From assembly GCF_963675165.1 (NCBI RefSeq), contig NC_087381.1:1674001-1738000 (forward strand): a stretch of DNA of 64,000 nucleotides. Reading direction: 5' to 3'. This DNA is from Halichondria panicea (lineage: Eukaryota; Porifera; Demospongiae; Suberitida; Halichondriidae). Both the position numbers and the translations under genes were made by a program. This document shows, in pieces, positions 3,991 through 43,569 of the stretch (the stretch's first letter is position 1; each line of letters opens with the position of its first letter). The notes beneath the pieces are model-generated. The model was given only the letters and a program-made list of their open reading frames with translations, was not told the DNA's origin and ran no database searches.

Positions 3991-4048
3991 GCCGTTGAAT
4001 GCCTTACTCTATTTACACTAGTGAACAAACCACAATCATGATTGTTAC

Positions 4049-4532: not shown

Positions 4533-4580
4533 GGCTGCAAGCACTGTACATGTCGAAGGCATGTATATTTACTATCATAC

Positions 4581-4631: not shown

Positions 4632-4715
4632 CTACATTGTATATGGCATGAAAATTAAGACTATAGAATCTACATGTCAAAGACATGTATATTTCCACAT
4701 TGACACATAGCGTAC

Positions 4716-12496: not shown

Positions 12497-12688
12497 TCAC
12501 TTGTCTCTAGCGATCCTAATCTCAATCTCATTGGCAATGTCCCCCTGACCAAGAGCACGGGATCTGAGAGCCTCAATGAGAGCAGACCAGGAGGGGGGAG
12601 GGTCGGTCTGGGTCAACCAGTGCTCCAGCATGCCAGTTAAACAAGCTCCAGCTACATCATGATGGTTGTGATGGTTGTACTGAATCTC
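12497..12688 (-). CDS. Last exon: second half of the C-terminal Death domain and stop
   Basis: Acceptor ctacag at 12689, 63 codons, TGA at 12497. It contains CLTGMLEHWLTQ, PPPSWSALIEAL and the ending ANEIEIRIARDK, the typical second half of a Death domain (helices 4-6: hydrophobic, Trp-Leu, Ser-Trp-x-x-Leu). The first half is in the exon at 12895-13029, joined in phase 0. Confidence 0.8.
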   Translation of the reverse strand, partial: EIQYNHHNHHDVAGACLTGMLEHWLTQTDPPPSWSALIEALRSRALGQGDIANEIEIRIARDK

Positions 12689-15600
12689 CTGTAGGAAGAA
12701 AATCACAGCATGATAACTTACTTCGTCTAATTGACTCCACTAATAAAACTATTTTGTGAGGGGCCATTACCTATTACTTGAAGAAGTAGGTACAGTACAG
12801 TACAGCATAGGATACATAAACCTTTACATCAATTGAAGGAAAGTCTAGAAATTCTGAGGCTATTTAATAGTATATCATAATTATATATCCTCACCTCTAA
12901 TTTCTCCATGGTTATAACTCCCAACTGTTCTCCCAGACACTTCCATTTGGCTCTTGCTTCCCAGGTGGTCTCTCTCACCACCTTCAAGTGCTGGTCTACA
13001 CTGAGTGGCTCTGTAGCAAGCAAGTCAAGCTGAAATCAATGCTAATAGATTATGACAAACCTTTCTGGACAAATACGTTTTGCTGACCCTGAGAGGGAAT
13101 GGATGATTCACCATCTCTAGATACTCCCAAATCCTGCACATAGGAGTTAGTTAATGCAATATACTGTACGATGGCCGAGAAGGGTCACCCGCCTCCGCCA
13201 ACTGCCACAAGGAACCACGCGCGGAGGTTTTGTTACTGATCGCGCATGCTATGTGTATATAAGTGTTATGATGCAAATTTAAGCACTCGCGGCGTAGGCA
13301 CATTAAACGCGCGCGATTCTTCCTATTGCCTGCGGGCGGTTAAACAAAGAACCGCCAACAATTTTCCAGTCCGTTTGCACAAGGTCAAAGGTCAAATAAT
13401 CATGTATGCATTCTAATTAACGCACGTATTACTTTGTTTGAAATGGCCATGGTCTCACTATAATAATATATACGTACTATAATTATATGCTAGTGATCTG
13501 CAAGAGTAGCTTTAGGACCAAATCCAACTCACTGCATTGATAGCCAAAGAATACCTTGCGTTAATTAGAATGCTGACATGATTCATTGACCGTTGACCTT
13601 GTGCAGACTGACCGGAACATTGTTGGCGGTTCTTTGTTTAACCGCGCGCAGTTCATTATGGCGGTAGGCGGAGGCGGGTGACCCTTCTCGGCCACCATAG
13701 CACTGTATACACACAATTGTACAACATACAGTAGCCCTCATATAAAAGTTCCCGTTGCGTTTCAGTTGCACGTAACGTTCCCGTTTTTACGGAGTCAGAA
13801 AACGCTAACTAAACGGTAGCGTATTATTCATAAACGCACCGTAATTACCTACACCGTTCTAGGAGAAAAAACGGGTGGAATTTGCTGAGTTAGCAATAAT
13901 AATTTTTATTTATTCTGTATGTACTAAGCAAGCTACAAATGTACTAACTTCTCTAGTGTAATCCAGGGGCATACAAATAGCACTGGGAATACTGCAGAAC
14001 TTACATGCAAGGCTGGAAGAAAATGAGAAAGTTGGTAGTAGCAAGTCAACCGGATCTCTCAGTCTGGAATCTTAGATACAGCTACATTATTATTATGATC
14101 TGATTGTACTATTACTTTTGTTGAACACTTCATTATAAATTATACACTATCGTATACAATGTCCTGTATCATTAAAACATCATGTCAAATGAAGAATAAC
14201 AAATTCATGTACAGTGCTATAAATATAAATATAAATGTTCAAACTGAATGTCAGTAATTATTCTAACTAGATCTAGCTCGCCTTGACCTTGCTTCTTAGG
14301 GATTCTGTACTTGCTCCGTAGCTGTTTGTGAAGGATGAGGATTCTTTGTTTAGTAGAACAGTTCACCAGCTTGATTTCTTGGAACACTAGCCAGCTAGCT
14401 ACGGAGCAAATCATGCAGCTACACGTGCGAACGTTATTTCAGAATTAAAACGGTTATTTCCGTACCGTATTAAATTTTAATGAGCTGGCTTCCGTTTTCA
14501 TTCCGTTTCTACGCGAACCGTTGTACGCAAATTGAACGGTACGGAACGGGAACTTTTATATGAGGGCTACTGTACCTGATGTTTCTCCAAGTCTGCTGCA
14601 ATGTCTGCTGCAATGTCTGCTCGACTGATGACGGGGCACTTTAGTGCTCTAATGAGGACCGACCAGGAGGGGGGAGGGGAGGGTCTCCTCACCCAGTCCT
14701 GCAACATGGCATGGAACCTAGCTGCTGCCGATGGGTGGTCACACTCAATGACCTGGTCATGACAACAATGATGAATATTCGCTCATGCATTACATGATTG
14801 TCACTCTGATACATGTATCAATAATGAGGTTTCATACCTTTCTAGCTTTGTAGTCGATATCCAGCTGTATTGCCAGACTGTACCAGTCAGCAGTGATTGC
14901 AATGACGGCTTTCTTCACTTTATCTAGTGGTAGCAAGTCTTCTCCTGCATGTGGTGATGAACCATGAGGTCACAATTTGTAATCTCCACAAAATTTAAGT
15001 GCCTCGAAAATTTCGCGCTATACGGTATTTGAAGTCAACAGAGTATAGTTATATACACAAACCTCTCTGTGTGCATGTGGCTGAGTCATTCTTTCCGGAA
15101 ATCTGAGATACTGAGAAAAAAAAATCTTTTTAACACTATAATATCAAGAGAGTTATGTTCACACTGGGAGTATCATAATGCCTGAGCTGCATGAATCATG
15201 TGTGTAGGCTCAGGTTTTAGTGGTCCATGTATGTATTAGGTATTATTATACAACCTGTAGAACACAATCATGCATGCACTTAATAATTATGAGACCCAAT
15301 TTTAAGTAAAGTGAATATAATGTTTATAGCGTGACTGATAGTGTTCCCATATTTACCTTGCACCAGGTGCTCCTCTCCGAATGTGTCATGGTCCTGTAAA
15401 GAGCATTATAATAGTTACACATTCTACACATTGTTTTACAAGCACTGTATGCAAACAGGCACCGAAGTGTGCATTTTGAAATGCTGCATGCAGTAACATA
15501 ATACTGTACACACAGTGCAAAGTAAACACCTTTTTTTCCAAGTACTGACAAATGTTGGTAACAATTTTTTCCTTCCTCAGATCCCATAAGATCCTAATCA

Positions 15601-18600
15601 GTGCTCTGAAGGTTGCTTCGCTGGGTTTGTGTCCCCTCCAGATTGACAAACAGTTAATCACTGCTACTTGATTACTGCTACTAACATGACCGGAAGTCCT
15701 CACATCAACTTGTTCGTTTCCATTCAACTTCAGTGGGTTGAGGTAGAGCTCCACAGTATCAAAGTGCATAGCTACTGGAGCAAGGTCCTCTTGTGTAATC
15801 TCTCGATTCAACTGTTTGTCAGTGACTCCATACTTGACCATCAACTCACAGAGACTGGTAGTCCGTGGATCCTATACACATAATTATAGGACATGTAATT
15901 TATATTGGATCTGCATGCATGTCTATAATTACACTGTTCTGGGAACATTTAAAAGAGTAAAAGTTTCAGAATAAGTGCGAGTTCTATTGCATTCGGGGTT
16001 ACTAAATTACAAATTCACCTGTTGATCATCATCACTAATATCATCATGAGCTAGGTCCTGCATGTGCATAGGGGAAATGGGAGTAGTAAAGTAACGTTAC
16101 AGTGGGTATATTTCAAGGGTATAAATGTTTTCACTGAAAGCAAGCATTTTATACTTACGAATTTTATCACATGCATATATGCATGCATGCATGCTGCAAA
16201 GCGGTTATTATTCTGCCAAAATTAAATCTTCGGCTAACATGCCGTCTTTCCACAAAAATGTATTATACCCACATAATACATCCACTATACAGTATAGGTC
16301 CTGCTATGCATGTGTGCATGCGTAAAAAAAATAAGAGCTAAGGTGCACGGTATATATTTTTAAAACTCCTGTTTTTGCTGGCCATACATATACACTATAT
16401 ATTACAGCTGCATTCATGCTTAGAGGTACATTATTATATACAACTCACCTTTGTGAACCATGTCTTCATTTGAAGGGTTACATCTATAGCAATCTTGCAG
16501 CTCTCGCAAGTCATGCTTTTAAGGTGCTGGTCTTCTGGATTAATTACTAGTAATGATGATCCGCTACCCATTGTTTTCTTACAGTTGCTTTGAGGGCATT
16601 TAAAAGCAAAATCATAGCCATGTGACGGCTGGAATAGAGAACTCTGTCGCATTCTGTCGATTACATCCTTGATTGATTTCTGTAACATGTCTTTAAGCAG
16701 TGGGCAAAATTTGCTGAACTCTTCATCTTTAGCAGCACCTAGGGGTCGAGATACTCGAAATTCACAATACTTGGCCCGGGAAATCAGCACAATATTGTAA
16801 CGGCCTCGAAATCGAAATGTGATTTTGTTTTTGTACACCACTTCTTCTTGCTCGTTCCCAAGTAAAAGCAGATCCTTGTTGTTATTATTTAATAAATTAG
16901 CCACAAGGGCAGAAACAAATCCCAATGGTACAAAACCAGTTTTAAAACGGACACAAAGGGGCTCTGGATCTCGAACAGTATCTGCTCCATCGAGAGACAT
17001 GTTCAATACCTCACTGGTGGCTGTTTGAAGAACTGCTGGAAGAAAGTACCCATTGATCGAATCCACAACCATCGGAACAGCTATGTTTAGATACTCCAAC
17101 AACGGTATTAGGTCTTCAATGGGTAATTGGTTTTTTTTAGCAGCGATAGCCTCCATGCTGTGATCTTCAGGAGAAAAGAAACCCTTTTGTGTGAAGCGAT
17201 CGAACACAGGTGGTTCTACATCTGGATCATAAATATTAAAAATAAGGTCACTAATAGAAGTGAAAACTGCTTGAGGACCACAGATGACGATATCCTTTGA
17301 AAGTTTGAGCTTTTCATCCTTCTGAAAGTACATCACTAACCCGATGTATTTGTGAAGGAATCTTAGAGCAACTTTGACTGTCTTTTCATCATTGATACCA
17401 AAACGCCTAGCAACTTCAACACAGTCCAGAAATTCTATGACACTCTTCTTTTTTTTCTGAGCAAGAATTTTCAAGCAAATACTAAACATCAACCACCTTG
17501 CAGGGATTTTATACTGTCGGAATTTGCTTTCAATAAGATTTTTAATAAGTTTTCTATAGTTATCAACTTCAGGTTTGCCCCCAGACTTATTATTAATTTG
17601 AAAGAGAACTTCTTTTTTGCATAGACTAGAATATTTGATAAGGCCATCCTTATAGAAAGGGGTAGTGGCCAGCGTTGCACGAAGTCGCTTATTGGTGTCT
17701 TCTACTTTTTTTGTAGCTGCTAGATCCTCAGATTTGAGGTCATCTGCATAGGTGCCCATAATCAATGCAAGTGAGTTGATTTTCTTCTTATTTACATCTG
17801 AGTTAGCATCCTGGTCAGAATATACATACTTCTCTACTTCCTGATCAGAGTGACCAAAGCATGCAATACTTGAGAGAGCAGTGAAAATAACTTCTTCTGG
17901 TGTATATGTGTAGTTTTTACAGATTAATGCTTCCATCTCGTTTTCGCCTTTGTATCTTGTCTCCTGTGGAGTATCCAATTCCCATAGAAGTTTCATGAAT
18001 ACAAGGTACATTGCTGGTCCAATTGTCAAAGAAGGTAGCAATTCTAAGAAAGCTGGTTGACCACCAACATCAGCGATGTTGATTAAGGCATGTATTGACT
18101 TTATATCATCATCGGGGGAATCACTCGATGTGGAAGAACGTAGCTTCTCAAACTCTTCATAGACTTCATCAATCTCGCTTTTTTGAACTTTTGTTTGAGC
18201 TTTTAGAGTGTCGGAAGATGGACAAGTATTATTTGTTAAAGCAACAGAGTTTTTTTCAGATTCTCTTTCATTTACTGTTGGGATCACTTTAGAATCAGAT
18301 AAATCACTAGGAGGTGAATCACTTTGTTGAAGAGATGCTTGAGGAGTCACCTTTGTTTCTTCTGAAGCAACCGTTTCACTAAGTGTTTCGGCTTCAGTCT
18401 GAATATTTAATAGGGAAATGAGTGCTCTCAATTCCTTACCTACGTCTGATTCATCAAGTACATGCCAGCTTTGTTCAGTTGACAGAGCTACTGATTCGTG
18501 ACTATAGCGTAAGAATACTTCTCTATATTCAGAAAGGCTAGTGCTTCTTGTTGGTCCATTTTCGGGATCTTCATCGATATCCCATTCCATGATTCCAAGA

Positions 18601-21600
18601 AGTCTACGGATAAACGTTGACTTTCCTATTTGTCCTGGTCCAAGAGCAAGCATTTTGAGACAGAACAATTTAATCTTTTTATCATTTTTTATTGCTTCAT
18701 CATAGATTTTATCCTCCTGTATCCCTGAAAACATATAAATGAATAGCAAAAATAAATAACTTTATGAGGTGTACAACTTAGCGTACAATCAGGAGTACAT
18801 TAAGGCAAGTTGTAGTGTAAACCAGGTTACGGTACGAGTATGTCATACCACATCACTATCAGACCGCATCTTAAGAGGGTGCATAGGTGTAGTGGTTAAT
18901 TAGGTCAAAATGATATCAGCATACACACGTGTGGTTTGTACCTCCAGCCCACATTTACACAACTACAAGTGTTAGTGATGGATTCAGTCCTAGATGTAGA
19001 ATGGAATGTGCGTGGGAGTTGAATACTCCTCTTTATGTACTCTTGGTACAGAGTGCAGGATGAATGATATTGTATTGCTTACGTGTTGTCAACTTCTGTT
19101 CCAGATCAGTTGATAAATATGATGTCTGTGTGGTCCGATCAAGGACTATTTGTAGCTCCTCATAAGTCAGATTACTTGTTCCACTGAGTAGCTCCGTAAT
19201 ATTTAAATCCAGTTCACCATCTTGCAGTGAAGTCACCTTCTGTAAAATTATTCCAAGGAGTTTAGACTCCTCGTCTTCAATTTTGGTTCCATCTGTACAT
19301 TCAATGAGAATTCTAATTAGGGTTAACTATTTTTTTATGCAAATTTCGTATGAACCATAACTGTTCAGAATGGTGACCTAGAACCTATAGCATAATAATA
19401 TGTTCGTTTAATTAATGGACCATACATAATCATGAAAAAACTCTGCATAATAATAATATAACATTTATATCTACCAATTTCAAGGACAGCCGAAAATGAA
19501 GGGACTTGCACATCCGATAAAAGTTGATCTGTGACAATACACTTGTAGCTACCACAGTGCTTGGACAAGGACTTCAAAACAACCAGTTCACTTGTTGTTG
19601 CTCCCTTGTAGTTAGCGTTGTCATCTGATATACTCTGATTGTTAAAGCACCAGTTGTAAGAGACCTGCCCAGGAGAAGACGCGGTCACAGCAATGAAGAA
19701 TTTGGCATCCTCACCAACTTTAATAAGCACATCCTGGGGATGTTGTTTAATGTTCCATTGAACTGAAAGTGGAAAAAAGTTAATGGAACAAATTAAGAGG
19801 GGCGTTTTGTGGTTAGTGCATTATGCTGTGTGTTGCACTTGGCAACAACGTATAGCAACGGGATAAAAGCTATCCAACACACTGGATTGATCTATAAGCA
19901 CTATGCAAACATATAATTATGCATGCACTTAATTATTTGTTCCCCATGCAGGTATATATTCCTCATAATTAATTGGGCTAGGTTTTATCCCCACATTGCG
20001 CTTAATTTTGAATCTCAGTATGTTGCTGGTGTAACAGATTGGAGTTATGCTCTCGTCTGATTTCTTGTTTCCACGCTTTTTTGTGGTTCCTCTGGCTAAT
20101 CCTAGCAATTTTTCACATTGCAAATGTTTTTCTAGTCGGATTATAATTATGCATGGTAACCATTGAGGCTCAGCCACTATTATATATACCCTTCAACATA
20201 ATTATATGTTAAATGAATGTCTCAAACGTTTCAGGTATGATCATAGCAAGTATTTTATCAGTACGTAACACTGATGTAAATTGTTATAGTATGTGTACCT
20301 CGAAGAGAAGCAAGGAGTGGTCTTATCCTTTCCTTCTCACCCATGTTAAAGTCTAGCGTGTTAAGCTGGAGACGTTTCAGTTCTCTGATACTTGTAAATC
20401 CATTTCCTTTACAATAAAATGAAAAAATAGTGGAATAGTTTGTGCATGTTTACTCACTCTTTAATTTATTGATTTCTGATTTTTTTAATTTCCAAGTTCT
20501 TCTGAGCTTATCTTCAAAGAGATCTGTTGAAACAGGGATCATTATTGCCGCATATACGAACTTATAATGCTTACCAAGCTCATTAGATTCAACACAGTTG
20601 CCGAATCTGTCCTTTACTTGGCATTTGAAAAAAACTTCTGACAATAAATCGCTATCTTTAATGATAAGACTGTCTGTTGCATAGCCGTCATAGTCGTGGT
20701 CATCACCATCACAGAGCTTTATCCCACCTACAAGCCATTCATATGTTAGTGGTCGTACTCCATCAGCACGTATGCTTATGACATTCCCTTTTCGAGCAGG
20801 CTGCTCGCAAATTCTTAGAGGAGTGCTTGGAACCTGTAAAACATAGGAATCATCTGTATACGGGTACTGTTTTTAGGTATTGCGTTTTACCTACCTTACC
20901 AAACCATACCATCATTTCTGGAGTTAGTGGAATAGCAGTTTTACATTTTGTACATATAACCTTCTCCGGAATATTTTTTTCTACGTCAATCTCTTTATCG
21001 GAATCATTATAGTCAAGTTTAGCGAGACATTCCTGTCCAAAGTCAGTATCGGAATTCCTTTGGCAATGCGCATGGAAAGCAAAATCATATATTTCAGAAT
21101 CATTGTTTACTGAACGCAAGCCATGCTGCAAAGATTGAATAACTTTATTGGCAACTGTACGTACAGTTTCCATGATCAGAGGACAACCATCCTCACTCCA
21201 AAACTCAATGCTATCATTATCTGGGAGCTGCCTAGTGACACGGAACTCACAATATCGTGGCAAAGAAATTACAGTGAGATTAATCATACCCTGAAATCGA
21301 AATTGAATCATATTCTTGTAGAGCTTGTTGCTTTCGTCAAAAAGTAGATCACATTTTTTTTCAGCAGTAAGATTTGCAATTAAAGCACACACAAATCCTA
21401 AAGGTATATATCCGGTTTTGAATCGAATGCAGATTGGTTCTGGAAGTAATTGATCATTTCCTCCCTTTTGCTTTCTTTTAATAGCATCTGTTTCAGCAGT
21501 TTGAAGAACCGCAGGTAGAAAATACAACACCTCGCCCTTACTAGAAGATACGGGAACTTTAGCAGCAATATTTAAGTGCGTTAGTAGATCAACTACGGTG

Positions 21601-27479: not shown

Positions 27480-27518
<39 letters not shown>

Positions 27519-30500: not shown

Positions 30501-33500
30501 TCACTTAGACAACACTTATATAGAGAATCATGTAGCAAAGATAGATCAAATCTGATTGGCTAGAGACTCATGGTTGCTATGATCTAAAATACTTAGACAC
30601 TGTTTAGGACATTTCTACATGATTTAGAAGCCCTCAGGGCTAGTAGAACCCTCACTACGTTCGGGATACTACAACCAGCCCTTTGGGTTTGCATGATTGT
30701 GTTTTTTATGACAATTCCAGGGGCTTCTTAGCCATACTATATACTCCAGTGCTTAGGATGAAACCCATATGCACTCTAATATAGATGCAAAAGCACGGAT
30801 ATGCTATTCAATATAGTAAACCCCGTTAAAAGTATCACCTAAGGTCGGTGTAGAAGATATCAAGTGCTCTTCTCTTAATGTATTATGGTCCTGTGAAGAG
30901 TAAGTCTTGCCTTCTTTGTCAGTCACATTCCGATCGCTATGGAATTCTGCCTTGGCTCTGTATTTCAAGAGTAGCTTTTTGATCTTAGGGTCGTTGACTA
31001 AATCGAGAGGTGTCTTGCCTTCTTTATCAGTCACATTCGGATCACAACGGCATTCTTCCAGTAGAAACTCCACTGTTGAATCTTGCTCATGCTTTACTGC
31101 TAGCAAGAGGATACCTGAATATACATGCAAATGTAATAATGGTAATTAAAATGTCGCTGTACTCCATAGGACACTAGTATAATAATACATGCATTCTTGG
31201 TAAACGACCCTATATAATAAATATCCCAGCACATAATTATACTAAGGTATTGGCTGCTGCTATATATAACTCTACATGACCTCCATTGTAACTTTCAATA
31301 AAGTTCTCATGTTGATTTAAGTATCAAATTAATACAAGGGGGAAGAGTATGGAAAAAACGCAAATAGAATATAAATTCTAGGTTAATTGAATGGTCCAAT
31401 GCAAAGAATCATCGGAAGGATTCACGCAATTGTGAACGTTAATAATAATAAGCAATTAAGAAGCTAAAAAGGAGTCAACTCATCCATAACTGGCCTAGCC
31501 TATAGCTTTTATACTTTTAGCTTATGCCATGCATGGCTTGCTGAATCGTTGTTAAAACATTCTATGGGTCATATTTTAAGTGAGCAACAATCCTCTGATG
31601 CAAAGAAAACCAAATCAAACCATTACATGCATGGGCTAATTTTCTCAAATTGATGCAAATCATTAGTATTCTGAATCATAAGACAATTGACCAGTGTATA
31701 ATGCTATACAACAAGCATTGAATTTAAAGTGGCTGAGATCCAGAACAGGGGCACTTTCTCCTCAACGGCCTAATTTATACTATCATGCTCCTGATGTTCA
31801 GTCATACCGTAGACTTTCGTTAATCTGGTCACCCTTAGGACAGTGCAGTTTGGCCGCAATACCGAAGTGGCTGCATTTTAGAAATTAGCCCCAGCTAAAT
31901 ATACTAAAGCCAGTCCTATACCTCTGTGTCTGAATCTACGCTTCTATTTCATTGTTCATCTGCCAAACCACACCTTAAACTTCACATCCAGCCGTACAAA
32001 ATTATTACTGGTTTGAGGAAGTCAGAATTGAACAGTATATACGGAATAGCAAGGTGGCTGCATTTCAGGGCGAGTTTTGCCTTGCGAACCAGAAATTAAA
32101 TGGGAATTACTTGTTGTATCACAGTGGTGAGTGATGGCGAGATACTTGACCACTTCCCAGTGTCCACCTTTGTAGGCCAGAGAGAGTGGGGTGTCACCAG
32201 CCTTGTTGACTGGCTCTGTGAAAAACCACCATCACAACTTAACAGCACTGATCATTGATCATGATGAACACTTACTTTTTGGATCAACATGCTTGTTGAT
32301 AAGAGCCTTGACCATCTCCAGGTTACCACGGGAACACTCAAGGGAGAGAGGAGTGTCTCCAGCCTCGTTCACTGCAACTGTGGATACAAGCAAATTGTGG
32401 ACACTAGAAAGGTAACGGTTTGCAGTACACACATTTTGGGTCGCACTGATGTTTTTGAGCAAGATATTTGATCGTTTCCAAATGTCTGTTTTTGTACGCC
32501 AGAGAGAGTGGAGTGTCTCCAGCCTCATTCACTGCCACTGTGGATACAAGCAAATTGTGGACACTATAAAAAAATTAACAGTGACGTTTTACCCTCGCGA
32601 AAATTACTCCCCCCCTTTTCTGTAAGAACATTTCTAACAATTGAAGCAGGGGGTGCTCAAGGATACAGGTGAGTAACGGGGCCGTGTGAACGAAACTGTA
32701 TCTTACACAAAAGTACTAGTTAATGCACGGTTGCGAGTGCTCTATGTTCTTGCGGAAGTTCTCGAAGCATTATGTAGCACTCGGTGTCGCCTCGAGCTAC
32801 ATGAGCTTCTCGAACTTCCGCGAGGCCAATAATATCCATAGAGCACGAGCGTAAAACAGTGCATTGACTGGTTTGTAGTTATTAGCTTCTTGCAGCTACC
32901 AATCTATCGGCTCTAGTATAGAGCTAACTACTAAGTAGAATAGCAACCTTCTACGAAAAGATTTTGATATTCCTGATTCTGGAGAGACTGAAATGGCCTT
33001 CAACGTACTGGTAAGCAAAACTAGCCTTTACTCGAGAATAAAGCCTTTGTTGGCAACAAAAATTTAATATGAAACAAGACCATCATGCAGATGCAGATGC
33101 TACGCATACTCTCGCCATTGAGTAGGTGCACCGTCTTAATCCCATATCAACCGTGCTCTATAACTACCCCAGCTGTGCTCTAACTACCAAACTGTTCCAA
33201 AAATGCCAAACAGAATAATAGAGCACGGTCTGTGGTTACTACAGTTGTAGATCTTAGTCTATGGCATTTGTTAGCATAGTTTTTCCTTTGATCTTTGCTA
33301 CAAACGTTATTGCTAGTATTCATTTTGTCAATGTTTTCGTAATTGTCCCGGCCTCTATTTTGCAATCATTTTCATTCTGTGATACACTTGTTTCTTTTGT
33401 TTAGTCGATATTACTACGTATTTGTATGAACGTTTCGGTGAATGTAAAACATTTTTGCATGGTTACGGGCTGGTGCATGACAACACGCTAATGAAGTGTG

Positions 33501-36500
33501 TCCAACACACTAGTACTTATAGACCAGCACACTCCTTGAAAAGTGTCTACAACACAAATGTGACAGTACGTATGCTCGACACAGCGTGCTATAATTATGA
33601 TCCCTGTCCAGCACAACTCCGGAATATTTGGCACAGGCCTAATGGTCAGGGGATACCACCAGTACAAAACAATCTGGGCATAGACGTAGAGCAAGCTAGC
33701 TGGCTATACCGGCGTCCTTGTCTCTTGATTCCTTTTTTCTTTTCTCTTATTGTCGATAGGTGTGATCAATAATACTGTACACGCCTAACATATAAATTTT
33801 CGCGGTGCAGGCTCAATCCGCGAAAACGCGAACATTTTATACCCTCGAAATATACCCACTATACGGTACATAATATCCAAGTAAAGCGATGTCTTTTGCT
33901 GTTTCGGCTTCACAGCAGGGAAAGAGAAAAGTTGACATGGAGTAATTCAAGCTAAACTCAACAAAACTTAAAAACTGAGTAAAGACAACGGACTTAGAGC
34001 TTGTCAATGGTGTAACTTACTTCTCTAGAGTATCTCGTAGCCCCTGAGTGATCGCTAGCGGATAGGAGAGCTAGAAACAGTTGAAATACCATCAGAGTAC
34101 GGTCAAAACTAAAATATTCGCGAGCGCGAAATCATAACGCAGAGTGTTTCACCCATTTACACAGGGCGGCCTGGTCGTTTCCAATCCCTATAGCTATAGC
34201 TCTTACTGTTATATCTATGGGCTACAAGTATAATATAGGATATCTGACTTATACCACGTGACCGCAGCACTATAAAAGGACCTCCCCTTAGCAATAATTC
34301 AATCCACAATGCAGACTGCAAAAGAGTAAGACTGTATGCCGGATTTTGCAGCCGTTAAAAAGCTAGCTGAGCAACACATTGACTCCTCCTATAGATACTC
34401 AAGACTTTCCTTGGTCCAAGCGTTCGCCATGCATTTAACGTCCCTTACTGGAGTTGCAAGCTCTTCTTGAGCTAAACCACGCCCATGGACTTAAATCTAT
34501 AATAGATATTGTAATCTATAATTATTGTGGGCTCAGGCAGGCAAATAAGTAGAGCTTCGGCCTTGTGTATAGGATTGAAAGAAAACCTGAAACGTTTTCT
34601 TGAGGTACTATTATATAGTTCACCTTTTGGATCGAGGCCAAAAGTTTCCACAAGACGCTTGACACAGTCCAGCCAGCCATAGAATGCACTCACTGACAGC
34701 GCACTCTCACCTTCCCCTGTATTGTTAGTACAATTTAGAATACTTATAATTATCATTGTACTATGGAACGTGAATACATACAGACGGATGGCAAAAGAGA
34801 AAAAGAGGCTATCCTACACAAGCTTATAGTACTGGACAGAGTTTCCCAAATAACAAACGCTAGTAGTTTAACAGCAGTTACTAACCTTGCTGACTGCAAA
34901 CACTCTCTGCCAACTTGTACTCTCCAATGCTCATTAGAGCTTCCACAATATCCTTCCACTGCATGTCAATATTCTTGAGTTTGGCTGCCTGAAGAGTTTC
35001 TGTTGTGGGATGTTGGCTTTTCTTTATGGTGTCCAGTTGGTCATTGCCCAATCCCAAGCGAACACCAAGTTGAAGCCATTGGTCACATTTCAGCTGACTC
35101 AGCTGTTCCAGTGTTGGGTACGAGGACAGTGGATCTACACAATGATTAGAAAATCTTCAGGAGGTATATCTATGAGATTTAGAAGCCAAACAGACTCCCG
35201 AGTGTACTGAGGGGGCACTGCATACAAATAGTCCCTAAGGCATTCATTGTCTATCTGTGGTATTGCACAGTACACAAGGCTGTAGACAGTGTTGATAGGC
35301 AAGTTTTATATGTATCACAAAAATTTGACGGATCCTGTGGCCAACAAATTAATACGTTCCAAACATCTTCAGAGAAAAATGATCACGAGATTCACCACTT
35401 GTAATCCAATATATGCGGACTGTGCATAACAAAGAAACCTATAGCTGTATACTGACATGCAACTCACTATATAGATACCTACTGACTATACTGTGTACAA
35501 CAGCTGATGGACAATTCACCTCTAGGTCGAGGCTGGAAACCCTCCACATAATCAGCCAAGGCACTGTACCCCTTCTCTCTGGCCACATCAGCAGCAGTCT
35601 GTCCACTACTGTCCTTGATATCTGCATGGTTGGTTGAACACTGACGTTTAATGTGTGCTAGCACTCACCCGACGTAACATACGAAAGTTAAAAACAAATG
35701 CTTTGGCAAATCTATAAGTTAAGGTAAGGGCGCTTTAGATTCACCAATTCTACTGTGAATTTTATGGCTTGCCTATAACTATCAAACTAAAAAAACATTT
35801 GCAATGTGAACGTTGCTAGGATTGCCAGGAAAAGAAAAGCGCGAAAAAGCGAAGAAACAAGAAATTCGGCGAGTGCATAACTCCAATCCGTTACAACTTC
35901 ATTCACATGTACTGTTTCAATTTTTTGTTCGTTTTGTGCTTTTCCTGGCCAATCCTTCAGCAATTTTTATCATATAATTATAGTGCATTTTTTGCAAGCT
36001 ATATAATGTTTTTGATGTTTTCCCTTACAGTGTTGAGCAAACATGCAAGTGTTGGATGTGTGGGTGGATGATTCAGTTATTCGCGGTTCATTTTTACCCA
36101 ACCTGTATTTTGATTCTAAAATCATTATCAACAGTAGGCCACTCGGCTGTACATGTTCATGGCGTTGTAACGGATTGGAGTTATGCACTCGCCGAATTTC
36201 TTGTTTCTTCGCTTTTTCGCGCTTTTCTTTTCCTGGCAATCCTAGCAACGTTCACATTGCAAATGTTTTTTTAGTTTGATTCCCTTTCTTTTTCAGTACA
36301 GTAGTATTTTTATACTCTTCAATTATAATGAAATGTGGTTCAAGAAGAGAAGAGAAGACAGGCCATGCAGACTGGAACACATAATTCTTATTACAGTGTT
36401 CATTTACCTATGCATGTTAAATACTAGAGTGTATACTTCAAAGTGCAAAAGCCTATGGTAGATCAAACTAAAAAAACATTTGCAATGTGAACGTTGCTAG

Positions 36501-38490
36501 GATTGCCAGGAAAAGAAAAGCGCGAAAAAGCGAAGAAACAAGAAATTCGGCGAGTGCATAACTCCAATCCGTTACAACTTCATTCACATGTACTGTTTCA
36601 ATTTTTTGTTCGTGTTGTGCTTTTCCTGGCCAATCCTTCAGTAATTTTTATCATATAATTATAGTGAATTTTTTGCAAGCTATATAATGTTTGTGATGTT
36701 TTCCCTTACAGCGTTGAGCAAACATGCAAGTGTTGGATGTGTGGGTGGATGATTGTGAATTCAGTTATTCACGGTTCATTTTTACCCAACTTGTATTTTG
36801 ATTCTAAAATCATTATCAACAGTAGGCCACTCGGCTGTACATGTTCATGGCGTTGTAACGGATTGGAGTTATGCACTCGCCGAATTTCTTGTTTCTTCGC
36901 TTTTTCGCGCTTTTCTTTTCCTGGCAATCCTAGCAACGTTCACATTGCAAATGTTTTTTTAGTTTGATTCCCTTTCTTTTTCAGTACAGCAGTATTTTTA
37001 TACTCTTCAATAATGAAATGTGAAATGCCTAAGAGGAATGTCAAGAAGCAAGAGAAGTTCAAGAAGAGAAGAGAAGACAGGCCATGCAGACTGGAATAAT
37101 TATATGAACACATAATTCTTATTACAGTGTTCATTTACCTATGCATGTTAAATACTAGAGTGTATACTTCAAAGTGCAAAAGCATGGAGGCCTATGGTAG
37201 ATCTAGCCAGTAGCATACCTGAGTTGAGAATGGAGAGAAGTTGGAGAAAAGGACTATACTAGGGACTGTTTGTGTACCGATCGATGTCACAGCCGGTTAA
37301 CCAGCCACGCCCATCTCATAAGTTGCCATGTGCGTTGCTGTGGCAGTCATTTAAACGGAATTGCGTAGGTAAGAAAAGTGGAGCCTGAGAGGTCATCTGC
37401 CTCTTGGAAGCGGACGCAATTCTGAGAAAAACGCCCATGGTCCGGGTTCTAGTCGACTAGAGGCTGTATCTAGAATCTTCTGAACATGTCTGTACAAGGA
37501 GGAAATGCTTTCCAAGAATGTTACTTACTAACTTACTTACTTACTTACTTAGTCAGTCAGACAAAACGCGGTGAAATATGAAAATAGTGCAATTTTTCAA
37601 ATATCAATATTAATGCATAAGAATATTCATTGACTATAATTTCACACATTTAGACAGATAAAAGGCTAACTAAGCTATCTGTCCACTCAGTTTCTTGCTG
37701 TGGCCCTTCCCTGCAGAAATAGAGCAATCTAAACACGAGTCAAAATTTGTGCAATAATTGAAAACACACACTACTGCACTGTCAATCCTATGTACAACCT
37801 ACTGGTTGTACTAATAAGAGTAATAATTATAGTATAGGTAAACGTGATCACAAAAGTAATATCAGTAAATTTACAATCTCCATGTGTCTATATAAGTCAC
37901 CAAACTTCCGCTGTGTTACAGTACAATAACCGGTATTTCCATAATGGGATAACCTACTACCATGGCAGACCGTGAAACATGCTAAACAGTATTTGTAAGT
38001 GTGTTACATAGTGGCCACCAGAAGATGAAATTCGTATGCCTATATATACGCACGTATGCTTACTGACTACTCAAATGTACCTACTGTGAAGCTTTGCTAT
38101 ATATAGCTACAATGGCGGTCACTGCCACACACCTGGACAAGATGACAGACACCTATATTGACACAGCTGGACTAATACCCAGGCTCACCTGTAGGACAGT
38201 GGTGCTCCAGTAACAGCTTAGCAGTGTCCTTATTGTTGTGAAGACATGCCCAGTGTAAAGGGGTACTGCCATAGTTATTTGTTGTAGCTGCAATGGCTCC
38301 GAACTTCATGAGTAGTTCGGCATTGCGGAGATGATTGTTAGCACATGCCCAGTGTAGTGGAGTGTGTCCATCCTGCTCTCTAGTGTAGTAGTGACTGTTG
38401 TTGGGTGGAGCTCCTCTCTGTAGCAGCTCAAATATATTTTGGTCAGGGCCATTCTGACTATCCCAGTAGAGTTGTTTAGCAAGGTTGTCA
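12497..38490 (-). CDS. Candidate giant multi-domain gene: Ank-Death-Ank-(Ig-RocCOR)x2-Death
   Basis: About 29 minus-strand exons from 38490 down to the stop at 12497 form a frame-compatible chain; most introns are phase 1 and the rest phase 0. Order: ankyrin repeats, Death domain, four ankyrin exons, Pro/Lys-rich linker, Ig-like, helical linker, Roc-COR GTPase, Ig-like, SAM-like, Ig-like, helical linker, Roc-COR GTPase, three Death-domain regions. No start codon or signal peptide was found, so the 5' end is open. Known family facts: Roc-COR proteins are GTP-regulated scaffolds, and Death domains recruit partners. The inference is an intracellular signalling or immune scaffold. It could instead be two or three neighbouring genes, since phase-1 module borders are common. 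The individual exons are listed separately. Confidence 0.55.
12895..13029 (-). CDS. First half of the C-terminal Death domain
   Basis: 45 codons, acceptor ttcag, donor gtgagg, phase 0 on both sides. LSVDQHLKVVRET and AKWKCLGEQLGVITMEKLE give the first three helices, with the usual Trp...Leu-Gly...Leu-Gly spacing. Splicing to 12497-12688 yields a complete Death domain. Confidence 0.8.
13094..13137 (-). CDS. Short linker exon (tentative)
   Basis: After acceptor tgcag the frame reads DLGVSRDGESSIPSQ. The donor is uncertain: an AAC|gtatt site would keep phase 0 into the next exon, so the exon may run a few bases past the listed left border. It resembles the short linker at 15063-15110 (VSQISGKNDSATCTQR), consistent with a repeated linker-Death unit. 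Confidence 0.4.
13173..13693. mobile_element. Intronic inverted-repeat element with GGCCGAGAAGGG ends
   Basis: Ends GGCCGAGAAGGGTCACCC and its complement, extended by 'gcctccgcc'. Further pairing inside involves 'aaccgccaacaat' and 'ccttgtgca'. 521 bp, no ORF. A clear target duplication was not found. Confidence 0.75.
13729..14572. mobile_element. Tc1/mariner-type MITE touching a splice donor
   Basis: Inverted ends CAGTAGCCCTCATATAAAAG, flanked by TA (13727-13728 and 14573-14574). 844 bp; the right arm also pairs well inside. On the minus strand the TA at 14573-14574 overlaps the GT of the donor after the exon ending at 14576, so the intron begins GTA and then transposon sequence. Confidence 0.85.
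14576..14752 (-). CDS. Second half of the middle Death domain
   Basis: 59 codons, phase 0 at both ends. FHAMLQDWVRR, PPPSWSVLIRAL and ADIAADIAADLEKHQ show the second-half Death-domain pattern. It completes the domain begun in 14838-14944. The PPPSW motif is shared with the last exon, so the two domains are recent paralogues. The donor is formed partly by a transposon target site. Confidence 0.8.
14838..14944 (-). CDS. First half of the middle Death domain
   Basis: Acceptor tgcag, donor gtatga; starts phase 1, ends phase 0. It reads LLPLDKVKKAVIAI and TADWYSLAIQLDIDYKARK: the conserved Trp and following Leu pattern of Death-domain helices 1-3. Confidence 0.75.
15063..15110 (-). CDS. Short linker exon before the middle Death domain
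   Basis: 48 bp, phase 1 on both sides, encoding VSQISGKNDSATCTQR in the only open frame that fits its neighbours. Small, so support comes from phase and splice sites alone. Confidence 0.5.
15357..15393 (-). CDS. Short DHDTFGEEHLVQ exon
   Basis: 37 bp, phase 0 to phase 1, acceptor tacag, donor gtaaat. The peptide DHDTFGEEHLVQ resembles DHNTLREEHLIS at 30839-30893 in the ankyrin section, which suggests the two ends of the locus share an origin. Confidence 0.55.
15530..15871 (-). CDS. Death-domain-like exon after the second Roc-COR
   Basis: 114 codons, phase 0 both sides, starting DPRTTSLCELMVKYG. The C-terminal half (INCLSIWRG, then EATFRALIRILWDL and IVTNICQYLEKK) fits Death-domain helices 4-6. 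The N-terminal half (LAPVAMHFDTVELYLNPLKL) fits helices 1-3 less well. It is the first of three such regions after the GTPase. Confidence 0.7.
16019..16057 (-). CDS. Acidic mini-exon
   Basis: 13 codons (DLAHDDISDDDQQ), phase 0 both sides, acceptor tgcag, donor gtgaat. An acidic hinge between the GTPase exon and the Death-domain exon. Confidence 0.5.
16449..18724 (-). CDS. Second Roc-COR GTPase exon with C-terminal Cys cluster
   Basis: A single 2276-bp exon (758 codons). Near its start is the Walker A loop LGPGQIGKSTF, followed by a Ser/Thr/Glu-rich insert and the switch II motif DVGGQPAFLELLP. A GTYADD stretch occupies the guanine-specificity position. The later part (WLMFSICLKIL, then VALRFLHKYIGLVMYF and CGPQAVFTSISDLIF) has the winged-helix COR pattern, followed by LCVRFKTGFVPLGFVSALVA. 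The C-terminus has Cys pairs (CPQSNC and CESC) that could bind zinc. Family knowledge: Roc binds GTP and COR mediates dimerisation. The donor after WFTK is AAAG|gtgagt, phase 0. Its closest relative is the exon at 20895-23173. Confidence 0.85.
19083..19292 (-). CDS. Helical linker exon before the second Roc-COR
   Basis: 210 bp, phase 1 both sides. It includes ELLSGTSNLTYEELQIVLDR and TDLEQKLTT. The same module (LLNGSSDVTYEEMEFVMN) precedes the first Roc-COR at 26259-26483, and a relic lies at 29803-29970. Predicted helical; no named domain recognised. Confidence 0.7.
19475..19762 (-). CDS. Ig-like domain exon
   Basis: 288 bp, phase 1 both sides. It reads VSYNWCFNNQSIS (C strand) and HCGSYKCIVTDQLL (F strand, with the Y-x-C motif), about 95 residues, one Ig domain. 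The B-strand Cys is missing: the expected position reads AKFFIAV. A phase-1-1 exon holding one Ig domain is classic for Ig modules. No signal peptide or membrane segment was found nearby. Confidence 0.75.
19930..20160. repeat. Diverged half copy of the 35.8-kb repeat
   Basis: Contains 'ggattatgctctcg'-like and 'ctagcaatttttcacattgc' stretches that align with the right halves of the repeats at 35781-36461 and 36462-37202. It lies in the intron between the SAM-like and Ig-like exons. Confidence 0.65.
20299..20406 (-). CDS. SAM-like domain, second part
   Basis: 108 bp, phase 1 both sides. NGFTSIRELKRLQLNTLDF and GEKERIRPLLASL follow the KLK end of the preceding exon. Together they give the SAM pattern (helix, GF-S turn, L-x-L-x-L, G-x-R-x-R-I-L). 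SAM domains mediate oligomerisation; that role here is inferred. Confidence 0.65.
20458..20523 (-). CDS. SAM-like domain, first part
   Basis: 66 bp, phase 1 both sides, DLFEDKLRRTWKLKKSEINK; provides the N-terminal helices of the SAM-like domain completed by 20299-20406. Confidence 0.55.
20575..20833 (-). CDS. Ig-like exon directly after the first Roc-COR
   Basis: 259 bp, phase 0 to phase 1. RPLTYEWLVGGIKLCDGDD (C strand Trp) and EVFFKCQVKDRFGN (F strand Cys) support a V/I-set-like Ig fold. The B-strand region (KGNVISIRA) again lacks Cys. It joins WFGK of the GTPase exon in frame. Confidence 0.65.
20895..23173 (-). CDS. First Roc-COR GTPase exon with C-terminal Cys cluster
   Basis: A single 2279-bp exon, acceptor tgcag, donor AAG|gtaggt. 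Walker A reads LGPGQVGKSTF about 30 residues in; switch II reads DVGGQPAFLEMLP; the specificity position reads GTFFDE. COR-like winged-helix part: WLMLSICLKLL, VALQFLHKYIGLVMYF, CDPQVVFSTISELIF, then ICIRFKTGYIPLGFVCALIA. The C-terminal Cys pattern (HCQ...C and CTKC, then WFGK) parallels the second copy. Clear paralogue of 16449-18724, strongest in switch II and COR, weakest in the Ser/Gln-rich insert after the P-loop. Likely a GTP-switched scaffold. Confidence 0.85.
23174..26258. other. Large intron with repeat fragments
   Basis: A 3.1-kb intron of the candidate giant gene. About 23210-23440 is a dispersed repeat also found at 44690-44900, including 'actgatttagtatcccaagc'. Solo CAGAGGAGG-type ends occur near 23456 and 23631. 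A hairpin element lies at 24808-24914. Short open frames look like chance. Confidence 0.5.
24808..24914. mobile_element. Short hairpin MITE with CTGTAAAAAATG ends
   Basis: 107 bp with inverted ends CTGTAAAAAATG and CATTTTTTACAG; inner stretches such as 'gactattgt' also pair. No convincing target duplication. Confidence 0.6.
26259..26483 (-). CDS. Helical linker exon before the first Roc-COR
   Basis: 225 bp, phase 1 both sides. It includes EKQELQFIGKMLEKSAIDFG and SSDVTYEEMEFVMNLNLR. Homologous to 19083-19292 and to the relic at 29803-29970. Joins the first GTPase exon with an AGA codon split 1/2. Confidence 0.7.
26898..27167 (-). CDS. Ig-like domain exon
   Basis: 270 bp, phase 1 both sides, 90 residues. 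TTYQWYFKNQIISNPDYKGQ and KGVYWCVAEDASGTRT show the C-strand Trp and the F-strand Y-x-C. The B strand reads AKLTILT with no Cys; two adjacent Cys precede it (ICCKPG). It matches 19475-19762 in the DYKG/NYKG region. Confidence 0.8.
27481..27519. repeat. (CAGA)n microsatellite
   Basis: About ten perfect tetranucleotide copies in an intron. Confidence 0.95.
27520..28522. other. Intron; nothing clear
   Basis: The stretch 'accatagatagtaaagg' near 27535 resembles one at about 10574, so a fragment of the same dispersed family may start here. No exon supported. Confidence 0.4.
28527..29445 (+). mobile_element. Non-autonomous piggyBac element
   Basis: Ends CCCTTTAACCGTC and GACGGTTAAAGGG, flanked by TTAA at 28523-28526 and 29446-29449: piggyBac ends and target. 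919 bp. The internal ORF (28734-28988) encodes only an acidic N-terminal piece, so the element cannot move by itself. It sits in an intron of the minus-strand gene. Confidence 0.9.
28734..28988 (+). pseudogene. N-terminal remnant of a piggyBac transposase
   Basis: From ATG 28734 the frame begins MARLFTCADVLEQLEDSNGD and continues acidic (SSGDDSAYEGEG) for 84 codons. This acidic leader with CADVLEQL is typical of piggyBac transposases. The catalytic DDD core and the C-terminal Cys domain are absent; internal deletion is the simplest explanation. An upstream in-frame ATG at 28653 is possible. Confidence 0.7.
29477..29635 (-). CDS. Linker exon, second part
   Basis: 159 bp, phase 1 both sides: EQKPSKEDELPNDVPKAF, then KTRYSEESDATCARAQ. 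It continues in frame from 29683-29802. Predicted disordered; no domain recognised. The piggyBac element lies in the next intron. Confidence 0.55.
29683..29802 (-). CDS. Pro/Lys-rich linker exon, first part
   Basis: 120 bp, phase 1 both sides: DDKAGSDHVVPGIFPSPYKQ followed by a Pro/Lys/Asp-rich stretch to SPERGRET. The frame is open without splicing up to 29970, so this exon may be longer and include the relic next to it. Confidence 0.55.
29803..29970 (-). pseudogene. Truncated third copy of the helical linker exon
   Basis: After acceptor tgcag the frame reads IIKRQEIRTFLKKSAIDFGQ and HLLNGE, matching 26259-26483, then diverges where TYEE would follow. Part of it (29811-29906) is repeated at 33053-33148. 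It may be a relic or the start of a longer exon running into 29683. Confidence 0.55.
30070..30464. mobile_element. Inverted-repeat element with TAGTCTCGCGAGC ends
   Basis: TIRs of about 60 bp, starting TAGTCTCGCGAGCGGACTTG and paired on the right. Flanks ATTGGTTAG and ATTGTTAG look like a 9-bp target duplication with one base lost. No ORF. Confidence 0.8.
30839..31114 (-). CDS. Last ankyrin exon plus linker
   Basis: 276 bp, phase 1 at both ends if the donor TTAG|gtgata is used. ILLLAVKHEQDSTVEFLLEE then DKEGKTPLDLVNDPKIKKLL is an ankyrin repeat pair. The exon ends DHNTLREEHLISSTPTL, like the exon at 15357-15393. Without splicing, the frame reaches a stop at 30804 after GDTFNGVYYIE; in that case an ankyrin gene would end here rather than continue into the Ig-Roc part. 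Confidence 0.65.
31115..32110. other. Intron; nothing recognised
   Basis: No exon, inverted repeat or conserved stretch could be supported. Confidence 0.4.
32111..32215 (-). CDS. Ankyrin repeat exon
   Basis: 105 bp, phase 1 both sides, one repeat: VNKAGDTPLSLAYKGGHWEV then VKYLAITHHCD. Acceptor tcacag, donor gtaatt. Confidence 0.85.
32276..32377 (-). CDS. Ankyrin repeat exon
   Basis: 102 bp, phase 1 both sides: VNEAGDTPLSLECSRGNLEM then VKALINKHVDPK. Donor gtaagt. Similar to its neighbours, so these exons arose by exon duplication. Confidence 0.85.
32433..32537 (-). CDS. Ankyrin repeat exon
   Basis: 105 bp, phase 1 both sides: VNEAGDTPLSLAYKNRHLET then IKYLAQKHQCDPK. Intron sequence before it ('gtatccacag') matches that before the next repeat, showing a recent exon duplication. 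Confidence 0.8.
32711..32868. mobile_element. Hairpin element with GAGTGCTCTATG arms
   Basis: 'gagtgctctatg' and 'cttgcggaagttctcgaa' pair with 'ttcgagaacttccgcgagg'-like and 'catagagcacgagc' sequences on the right, in an intron. Borders approximate; no target duplication seen. Confidence 0.55.
33053..33148. repeat. Duplicate of 29811-29906
   Basis: About 96 bp, from 'ttggcaacaaaaatttaat' to 'cgtcttaatcccatat', is identical or nearly so to 29811-29906, in the same orientation. It carries part of the helical-linker exon. Confidence 0.9.
33906..34186. repeat. Inverted copy of the 10278-10570 dispersed repeat
   Basis: Reverse-complement relative of 10278-10570; contains 'gaaagagaaaagttgacatg' and 'ggtcgtttccaatccc'. 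Lies in the intron between ankyrin exons. Confidence 0.75.
34624..34716 (-). CDS. Ankyrin repeat exon after the Death domain
   Basis: 93 bp, phase 1 both sides: EGESALSVSAFYGWLDCVKR then LVETFGLDPK, one ankyrin repeat. Acceptor atacag, donor gtgaac. Confidence 0.8.
34886..35134 (-). CDS. Death domain exon between ankyrin repeats
   Basis: 249 bp, phase 1 both sides. PTLEQLSQLKCDQWLQLG, VRLGLGNDQLDTIKK and QWKDIVEALMSIGEYKLAES give the Death-domain pattern (Trp-x-x-Leu-Gly, Leu-Gly, then W-x-x-I-V-x-A-L). Slightly short between helices 3 and 5. Unlike the C-terminal Death domains, it is in a single exon. Confidence 0.8.
35520..35621 (-). CDS. Ankyrin-like exon
   Basis: 102 bp, phase 1 both sides: DSSGQTAADVAREKGYSALA then DYVEGFQPRP. 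It fits a final or capping ankyrin repeat. Confidence 0.75.
35781..36461. repeat. Tandem repeat unit 1 with long inverted arms
   Basis: The first part (35781-36280) has terminal inverted arms of about 117 bp, starting ATCAAACTAAAAAAACATTT. The unit continues to 36461 and is repeated directly next to it. Confidence 0.85.
36462..37202. repeat. Tandem repeat unit 2
   Basis: A near-identical second copy of 35781-36461, with the same inverted arms and the same tail ('gccatgcagactggaa', 'gcctatggtagatc') and a few small insertions. The small open frames in both units are incidental. Confidence 0.85.
37203..38188. other. Intron; short ACTT repeat only
   Basis: Tandem 'acttactt' copies at about 37524-37552. 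No exon supported. Confidence 0.4.
38189..38490 (-). CDS. Ankyrin repeats, most 5' exon found
   Basis: 302 bp, starts phase 2, ends phase 1. NIFELLQRGAPPNNSHYY, DGHTPLHWACANNHLRNAEL and YGSTPLHWACLHNNKDTAKL are canonical ankyrin repeats with TPLHWA. Acceptor catag. The exon before it was not found with confidence. Confidence 0.85.
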
Positions 38491-39524: not shown

Positions 39525-40323
39525 CAGCCCATACTTTGAATATTGACAGTCAGTTGAGCCTTGGTGTCCCCACCTCATCCAGATTGGCATGGCTTAAAAT
39601 TATTATTATAACTTTACAGTCACTATGTGTGAGGTAATGATATAAGAAAGGGGTGGCTTGGTAAATTGTGACTGACAGCAGGCATCACTAACATATGATG
39701 CCCCTAGCTGAGTATAAAATACATAACCTTAATGGGAACAAATATATAATTATGTTATATATATACATGCATACGAACCATTTGTGCCAGACCACCAGAC
39801 CATCCCACACATGCCCATTTTTGGCCTGGCCATCGTGAATTATTGTCATGATAATTAAGCTATTACCTTTCAGTTTGAGACACAATATTCATTTGTCACA
39901 TGCCTCATCAGTGGACCAGAAACCTCACAATTAAAGGATATAATTATAGCTATAGCCACTGAATATTCATAATCACTAAACGATATCCGTTAATCCGGAA
40001 ATTTCAAGCCAGTACTCAGATGGAGTTTAGTCCCGCTCTATTCAGATTAGCGAGGGTCTATATACTGTAGTTCGATTTACACAACACAGTTGTGTGCATC
40101 ATAGACGAGTGACCTGATGCGTGGGGTAGATCTATAATAAGAAAATGAATCTAATTATAACCACAATGAAAGTCACATGTGCACTGTGGGTGCATGTGTA
40201 TAGATAATAGATTATAAGTTTCTTTATATCTAAAGATAGTAGCTTTGCTTTGACTAGCCAACGACCTTTAAGAACCTATAGGTTTGACTCGCTGATATAC
40301 ATTTGACTTGGGAGTCTGTGAGA

Positions 40324-42640: not shown

Positions 42641-43423
42641 ACGCCTCGAGGTATAATAACAGTACATGCCGTGTAGACAGTAAAACTGTGCAACAACATG
42701 CAGTGAATTTGTCATGCATGCATGTGTGCTGACAAATTACCTTTTTTCAAGTATTCTGGCAGACCTTTGTGACAATCTATTCTTTCCTCACATTCAATAG
42801 CAGTACTCTGAAGGTTGTTTCGCTGCATGGGTTTGTAATCCTTCCAGATCGACAAACATGCAGTTTATCACTGCCATATATTGCCTTTAACAAAAGTGTC
42901 TCTCTTTACATCAGTGTTTGTTTCTAGTCAACTTCAGTGGGTTGAAGTAGAGCTTCGCATCATCAAAGTGCATAGCTATACTGGAGCAAGGTTGTTTTGT
43001 TCAATCTCTTGATCCAGTTAACTGCTTGTCCTGCTTGACCATCAACTGTGGATCCTACACATGATGGCAGTGTATGGGTCCACATTAAAAAAATTGGAAA
43101 TTTTAAAGCACATGAGGCACCTGATTAAAGCAGTAAATATAAAGTACTAGAGTGTCACAAATTAAGAGAAAGTCGACTCAATATCGATAGTTCAGTTTAT
43201 AGCAAAGGATAAAGATAAAAACATGTATATATAGTAATAATTATACCAACTCTCCCACTGCTGCATGCTGCTGGTGGAACATCAAACAGCAACTAGACCT
43301 GTCACTTTGTATTCCAATTGTCCAGTGAATGTAGTGTCTACACTATTCTTTATATAGCAGACAATTCTCAGCTGCATGACTGTTGAACATTTTTGCAAGA
43401 GAATGCACTGTTGAAGCTAGCCT

Positions 43424-43464
43424 CGATTCCAGGCCTTTCTCTTCGCGGCCTAGAATCGAGGCTT
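43424..43464. mobile_element. Short AGCCTCGATTCCAGGC palindrome
   Basis: A 41-bp inverted repeat also present at 55317-55362 in copy B, so it predates the duplication. Related to 4049-4135. Confidence 0.6.
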
Positions 43465-43569
43465 GTTGAAGTATGACAAGTTGTCACAAGTCTAGTTAAC
43501 GATTCTTACCAGACAAACACATGCCTCTAGTGTATGCATGTACATGTAGTAGTTTGGGGAGCAGCAAAC

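Follow-up and report, generated by a model that had tools for sequence, protein, structure and literature searches.

Does a long run of minus-strand exons in the sponge Halichondria panicea encode one protein with two Roc-COR GTPases, or does it comprise two or three neighbouring genes? The exons lie in a stretch of 64,000 nucleotides (C5:1674001-1738000, the window) of a genome of 131 Mb in 39 contigs. An initial annotation had read them as a single chain of about 29 exons; in our reconstruction the chain itself held and the count did not, and 26 exons were placed on the minus strand between 38490 and a stop codon at 12497 (Table 1). GT-AG is found at every internal exon border. The borders were checked by hand, a splice/coding DP trained on Roc-COR only having missed several exons, and those of the A block, the exons around the first Roc-COR, are backed by paralogues, in which conservation follows exon by exon and drops off at the borders.

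Joined, the exons give 2,864 codons, of which the first is incomplete, in a reading frame that stays open, as had been noted, until its sole stop at 12497, and the phases, which had been said to agree at nearly all junctions, match at 25 of 25. As evidence for one gene this match is weak, because 18 of the 25 introns are in phase 1 and 7 in phase 0; the match expected between two unrelated exons is about 60%. Phase compatibility as proof of a single gene was rejected on this ground, and the original caveat that two or three genes may be present stands. The first recognisable exon has no ATG and begins in phase 2, so that at least one further 5' exon with a start codon is expected. Polyadenylation signals are not diagnostic, since the true stop at 12497 is followed by no AATAAA or ATTAAA within 497 bp; a hexamer is present in about 10% of the 100-nt stretches here, and 2 of the 26 exons show one.

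Table 1. Features of the exon chain in window coordinates, listed in the direction of the reading frame
Feature	Position	Strand	Phase, match or remark
Ankyrin exon, first recognisable	38189..38490	-	phase 2 to 1; Pfam Ank_2 2.2e-17 on ORF
Ankyrin exon 35621-35520 and Death exon 35134-34886	34886..35621	-	both phase 1-1; Pfam Death 4.5e-4, 20.7 bits against gathering 22.6
Five ankyrin exons 34716-34624, 32531-32433, 32371-32276, 32215-32111, 31114-30839	30839..34716	-	Pfam Ank_2 4.3e-28, joined exons
Two low-complexity linker exons 29802-29683, 29635-29477	29477..29802	-	may be where a separate ankyrin gene ends
Ig domain 1 (module A)	26898..27167	-	phase 1-1; Pfam Ig_3 6.3e-9
link1, ~70-aa module before Roc-COR A	26259..26465	-	73.6-79.4% in 7 A copies with full-length match
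Roc-COR A, single exon	20895..23173	-	phase 1 to 0; G1 GPGQVGKST, G3 DVGGQP, G4 GTFFD
Ig-like domain 2 (module A)	20575..20833	-	phase 0 to 1; Pfam I-set 0.057; 12-copy alignment; best fold match Ig, E 0.01
SAM-like exon pair 20523-20458, 20406-20299	20299..20523	-	phase 1-1; conserved in A copies
A-B junction, 536 bp	19763..20298	-	separated pieces of neighbour's ~4.6 kb spacer and ~220 bp repeat-like; blastn
Ig domain 3 (module B)	19475..19762	-	phase 1-1; Pfam I-set 3.1e-6
link2, module-B version of ~70-aa module	19083..19292	-	comparison with paralogue loci
Roc-COR B, single exon	16449..18724	-	phase 1 to 0; alignment; COR-A 4.9e-6
Small exon 16057-16019 and Death exon B1 15871-15530	15530..16057	-	both phase 0-0; Pfam Death 2.1e-3; 61-95% in L014, L024, L027, L029
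C-terminal exons 15393-15357, 14944-14838, 14752-14576 (Death B2), 13029-12895 and 12688-12497 (Death B3, stop)	12497..15393	-	Pfam Death 2.3e-6 and 1.3e-3

Roc-COR units and accompanying domains

The Roc-COR of unit A is genuine and its fold is clear: all 29 PDB matches with E<=0.001 fall on LRRK1/2 or on Roco proteins of prokaryotes, at an identity of 10-17% to these structural matches (LRRK1/2, bacterial and archaeal Roco). Both units carry the G motifs G1 GPGQ(V/I)GKST, G3 DVGGQP and G4 GT(F/Y)xD, and across 23 aligned copies GGQP of G3 and GT..D of G4 are invariant. The two features of Roco proteins, the G motifs of Roc and a COR following Roc, are thus both present, and the two Roc-COR GTPases of the initial annotation are borne out by the fold of unit A and by the motifs in both units. 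The profile-HMM search over the spliced product that had been proposed as a check gave a mixed outcome. Ankyrin, Ig and Death were recovered; COR-A was matched at 8.9e-7 and 4.9e-6, both below gathering; the Roc model fell below the cut-off for unit A and was absent from the matches of unit B; and SAM was not found.

Ankyrin repeats and two of the Ig domains, Ig1 and Ig3, are firm by Pfam. The third Ig domain that had been proposed, Ig2, is weak by sequence: in an AlphaFold model built from 12 copies (pLDDT 66.6) the best matches are Ig structures, all above E 0.001, and a profile search of the PDB gave no significant match. The window holds four Death groups, one above Pfam gathering (28.1 bits, E 2.3e-6) and three at 18.6-20.7 bits against 22.6. 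The annotated ankyrin repeats and Death inside the ankyrin block were recovered, this Death below gathering; the C-terminal Death, taken to be one, is present as three groups. The exon pair that had been called SAM did not fare as well, having no match to a SAM family in Pfam, either in the correctly joined window copy or in a second copy. In a PDB profile search p73-type SAM entries appear at E 0.67-0.98 among 14 PDB matches, with LRR proteins ranked above them. The SAM identity of the pair is unproven, and we refer to it as SAM-like. A conserved exon of about 70 aa that precedes each Roc-COR, here called link1 and link2, had been overlooked; link1 matches no Pfam family. In the Pfam scans of exons, which begin downstream of the expected 5' start exon, no protein kinase family, no NACHT or NB-ARC and no LRR was matched.

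Modules A and B and their paralogues

A search of the sponge's own genome with unit A gave at least 64 matches at E<=1e-10; 57 of 354 candidates were scored, so that the counts are lower bounds. In a tree of 24 copies, 13 form an A group and 7 a B group, with one copy from the window in each, while L030 and three more distant copies stand apart; L010 and L012 are close relatives of the window's A. The A-B order is repeated in tandem next door, at C5:1756394 and C5:1747802. Copies of B on C8 and C22 have no A nearby among the matches listed, which suggests that B can work from other upstream exons. From these comparisons the two halves of the window can be assigned to separate paralogue groups, A and B, that are also found apart, and the locus is best described as a local array in which modules A and B of an expanded family of animal Roco proteins (Roc-COR GTPases) stand head to tail. 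The order and frame of the proposed single gene hold, and its single-gene status holds only in part.

Module A can be written as Ig - 70-aa link - Roc-COR - Ig - SAM-like, followed in several copies by Death, and module B as Ig - link - Roc-COR - Death, Death, Death. Among the 12 other A copies, Ig1 and link1 lie within 1.5 kb upstream of Roc-COR A in seven (L013, L014, L015, L018-L021); link1 alone, truncated at the end of the locus, is present in L010 and L011, and neither was found in this interval in L012, L016 and L017. Ig2 follows Roc-COR A in all 12. SAM-like exons, whole or partial, were found by search in all but L021, where they are readable by eye. Past them, at 0.3-0.75 kb, a related Death exon is present in four copies (L010/L040, L012/L039, L013/L041 and L014, that of L014 being nearer to Death B1). 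In two copies the Death is of another type and lies at a distance of about 1.3 kb in L042 (1.2e-8) and about 4 kb in L046 (2.1e-7), possibly as part of another gene, and in six (L011, L015, L017, L018, L019, L021) no Death was found in 0.7-0.9 kb. The window has none between its SAM-like exons and Ig3. On the B side, Ig3 and link2 are present in all four contexts whose upstream flank was examined (L039, L043, L044, L045). Downstream of Roc-COR B, Death B1 is present in L024, L027 and L029 and had no match in the flanks examined of L023, L025, L030 and L031; downstream of the Roc-COR B of L031, relatives of the window's later Death exons, not of Death B1, occur at three places.

The flanks of two A copies contain further modules. 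In L040 (C6:3582272-3588271) a third type of Roc-COR lies on the plus strand at 4156-5999, about 2.5 kb downstream of the A copy's Death exon and preceded by an ORF without Pfam match (3653-4228); it is 62% identical to L036, itself 28% identical to A. In L042 (C12:1178256-1184255) the plus-strand segment 2832-4640, downstream of the A-type gene and in the same orientation, has ankyrin repeats (2.7e-54) together with an exon whose P-loop matches are weak.

The modules compared, namely Roc-COR A and B, Ig1-3, link1-2 and Death B1, have dN/dS below 1 on average, and their divergence may largely predate the deletion discussed below. The ratios are 0.28-0.43 for Roc-COR A and 0.37-0.52 for Roc-COR B, and the medians for Ig1-3, link1-2 and Death B1 are 0.34-0.51, single pairs of Ig2 reaching 1.60. 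Diversifying selection on link1 was considered and rejected (median 0.34; 9 copies, 35 pairs).

Elsewhere in the window, the Death B1 exon recurs on the minus strand in two disrupted copies, with stops and frame changes, at 54563-54858 and 42741-43048 within a tandem duplication (42642-43763 and 54498-55647, 79%); the plus-strand ORFs beside them, 40288-41292 and 51890-52882, are likewise duplicated. A minus-strand ORF of 271 codons at 50474-51286 has no Pfam match and presumably resembles the C-terminal part of a retrotransposon protein. WD40-repeat exons on the plus strand at 57151-58655 (WD40 2.6e-7) resemble, we assume, SMU1, and the exons near them at 59.4-61 kb are taken by us to be SRCR-like.

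Junctions between the blocks

In a blastn comparison of the window with its neighbour, similarity is continuous over 23176-20162 (87.5%), window 20267-20140 matches at 95.3% a position 1.8 kb further along the neighbour's spacer, and 19919-15000 resumes at 94-95% about 2.4 kb further on. Relative to the neighbour, two segments of about 1.8 and 2.4 kb are thus absent from the window, and the first of them holds the neighbour's Death exon, which is 42% identical to Death B1. The neighbour keeps this exon and has about 4.6 kb from its SAM-like exons to Ig3, against 536 bp in the window. The roughly 220 bp between 20140 and 19919 are repeat-like, and 20030-20142 matches the repeats at 35.8-37 kb, where, inside the first ankyrin intron, a 0.7-kb repeat whose ends are inverted stands twice side by side (35781-37203, 91%).

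The 536-bp interval contains no AATAAA or ATTAAA. The Ig3 splice acceptor is conserved in four of the five copies read, window included, and the window's Ig3 frame has no in-frame upstream ATG, which together suggest that Ig3 needs an upstream exon. Since the nearest minus-strand exons upstream are those of A, an A-B fusion is likely. In the C8 copy of B (L043) there is an in-frame ATG near the start of Ig3, and B may start there; similarity between this copy and the window runs at 84-89% through exons and introns and ends at 19906, 144 bp upstream of the Ig3 acceptor. B blocks thus stand behind differing upstream sequence, which would fit their having been moved as the 3' parts of genes. We consider it on balance probable that splicing joins A and B of the window into a single double Roc-COR protein with three Deaths at its end, after DNA loss in the tandem array: the loss of A's Death exon and of most of the A-B spacer would have put A's phase-1 donor 536 bp from B's phase-1 acceptor. 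The junction from the SAM-like exons to Ig (20299 to 19762) that had been proposed is accordingly plausible as a real junction, given its length, the lack of a polyadenylation hexamer, the lost sequence and the Ig3 acceptor, and is not a settled architecture.

Loss in the window appears the simpler polarity, since a related Death persists in the neighbour, in L010 and in two further A copies. This polarity rests mainly on the neighbour and L010, as Death after A is not universal, and the six A copies without Death in reach leave doubt. The same copies bear on the possibility that the chain is three adjacent genes, an Ank-Death-Ank gene ending near 29.4 kb, Roc-COR A and Roc-COR B, phase-compatible through the phase-1 introns of the family. 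Several A copies have no Death close past their SAM-like exons, so that the A of the window may be intact at its end; elsewhere the two modules are found separately, and phase 1 predominates among the introns. We nevertheless find three genes unlikely, given so short an A-B gap, an Ig3 without start and with a conserved acceptor, and the absence from the window of segments present in the neighbour.

The A-B join seems to have come about by the secondary fusion of two members of the family or by the loss of a symmetric internal exon. The A-type Death exon is in phase 1 at both ends and has a clear GTRAGT donor (L039, L040), so A-B may be one gene even where Death is kept. A-B could then have been a single gene from the outset, with Death inside it, and the window would have lost no more than this symmetric exon; the solo B locus L045 does keep an A-type Death 3.3 kb upstream of Ig3. 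However, no Roc-COR A is near L045 among the matches listed, in L043 and L044 the sequence read upstream of Ig3, 5.2 and 3.9 kb respectively, is free of such a Death, and what follows the A copy in L040 is an ORF without Pfam match and then a different Roc-COR. This history of the locus seems quite improbable.

The border between the ankyrin block and module A is less clear. The Ig1 acceptor is present in all nine A copies read, window included, which suggests that Ig1 needs upstream exons, with the ankyrin block as the nearest candidate; this much would fit the ankyrin/linker to Ig border of the initial annotation. On the other side, the second linker exon, which has no match in the paralogue loci compared, can be read on to a stop at 29399, with AATAAA beyond it at 29373 and 29324, and the ankyrin block may end there. 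A connection of the ankyrin block to A-B is weaker than the A-B join, and we consider it rather unlikely. Two genes, a separate Ank-Death-Ank gene and a single double Roc-COR gene beginning with an exon somewhere between 29.4 and 27.2 kb, are possible, if on the unlikely side; this arrangement has the A-B fusion, and the evidence for it, in common with the fused A-B reading preferred above. The signals at 29.37 kb fit it, as does an open frame ahead of Ig1 that contains an ATG at 27249, but DNA similarity among the A paralogues ends at 27176-27172, so that the stretch with this ATG is unconserved and behaves as an intron. The stop and the two AATAAA also speak for three genes, as does a disrupted link-exon copy at 29864-29973, within what would be the ankyrin-to-linker intron, but in number the signals are unremarkable against their frequency in the window.

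The link relic is 77% identical to 26350-26468. A 100-bp stretch, 29804-29903, recurs with 100% identity at 33048-33147, its first copy overlapping the relic, and relic and recurring stretch together suggest recent reshuffling at the ankyrin border.

Were one transcript to run over all groups, which we consider rather unlikely, the product would have about 2,900 residues or more, with two Roc-COR in cis, ankyrin and Ig surfaces and four Deaths, born by DNA loss that fused two Roco genes.

A possible function and its relation to known proteins

Death domains usually recruit adaptors, and ankyrin and Ig surfaces bind partners. Roc-COR proteins are described as GTP-dependent switches that can form dimers through COR (PMC6337361). 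We speculate that the protein, with the Ank-Death-Ank block as its N-terminus unless this block is a separate gene ending near 29.4 kb, would be a cytosolic sensor that contacts a ligand or partner through its ankyrin and Ig surfaces. Its Roc-COR units would switch with GTP and dimerise through COR, possibly with each other within one chain, and the GTPase pair would control the exposure or clustering of the Deaths, which may recruit a cell-death or NF-kB-type adaptor.

In DAPK1 the order is ankyrin repeats, Roc-COR and C-terminal Death, and with these three in one protein it is nearest in content. It differs in having a kinase, of which none was seen in the exons scanned here, and the sponge locus adds Ig, SAM-like and link modules, two Roc-COR and a Death inside the ankyrin block. 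A passage on Roco proteins gives Death as a component of the DAPK1 group (PMC6337361). With LRRK1/LRRK2 and the bacterial and archaeal Roco proteins Roc-COR is in common, and here no LRR or kinase is among the Pfam matches of the scanned exons. Roco genes are likewise many and varied in another non-bilaterian animal, the placozoan Trichoplax, for which a passage lists at least 17 with varied architectures including LRR, TPR, CARD and Death and names no Ig, SAM or double Roc-COR (PMC11378527). The same source describes expanded LRR-ROCO candidate immune receptors in brown algae, in which LRR exons are shuffled and under diversifying selection, whereas here whole modules appear to move and dN/dS is below 1 on average (PMC11378527). 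Sponges are described as having expanded Death-containing families of varied architecture, NLRs included (PMC12909245), and in Amphimedon large TRADD-N families mix Death with other domains, up to half of them in unique architectures (PMC8195603), so an odd Death architecture in a sponge is in itself unsurprising. In contrast to these proteins, the present family has Roc-COR rather than NACHT or TRADD-N, and no LRR was found in its scanned exons.

The family itself is Roco and known. In titles and abstract beginnings of the open-licence literature we found no description of Ig with Roc-COR or of a double Roc-COR, and within that scope the arrangement appears to be new. Roco proteins such as LRRK2 and DAPK1 have been studied mostly as single dimerising Roc-COR units. 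A natural two-unit chain, with a tandem sister about 60 kb off that has more spacer, would allow a direct test of whether dimerisation in cis is tolerated or useful, and if there is a single transcript that arose by fusion, the fusion would be datable against the unfused next-door copy. That whole blocks of Ig, Death and Roc-COR modules appear to move in an animal that probably branched early would bear on the diversification of cytosolic death and immune sensors other than NACHT NLRs.
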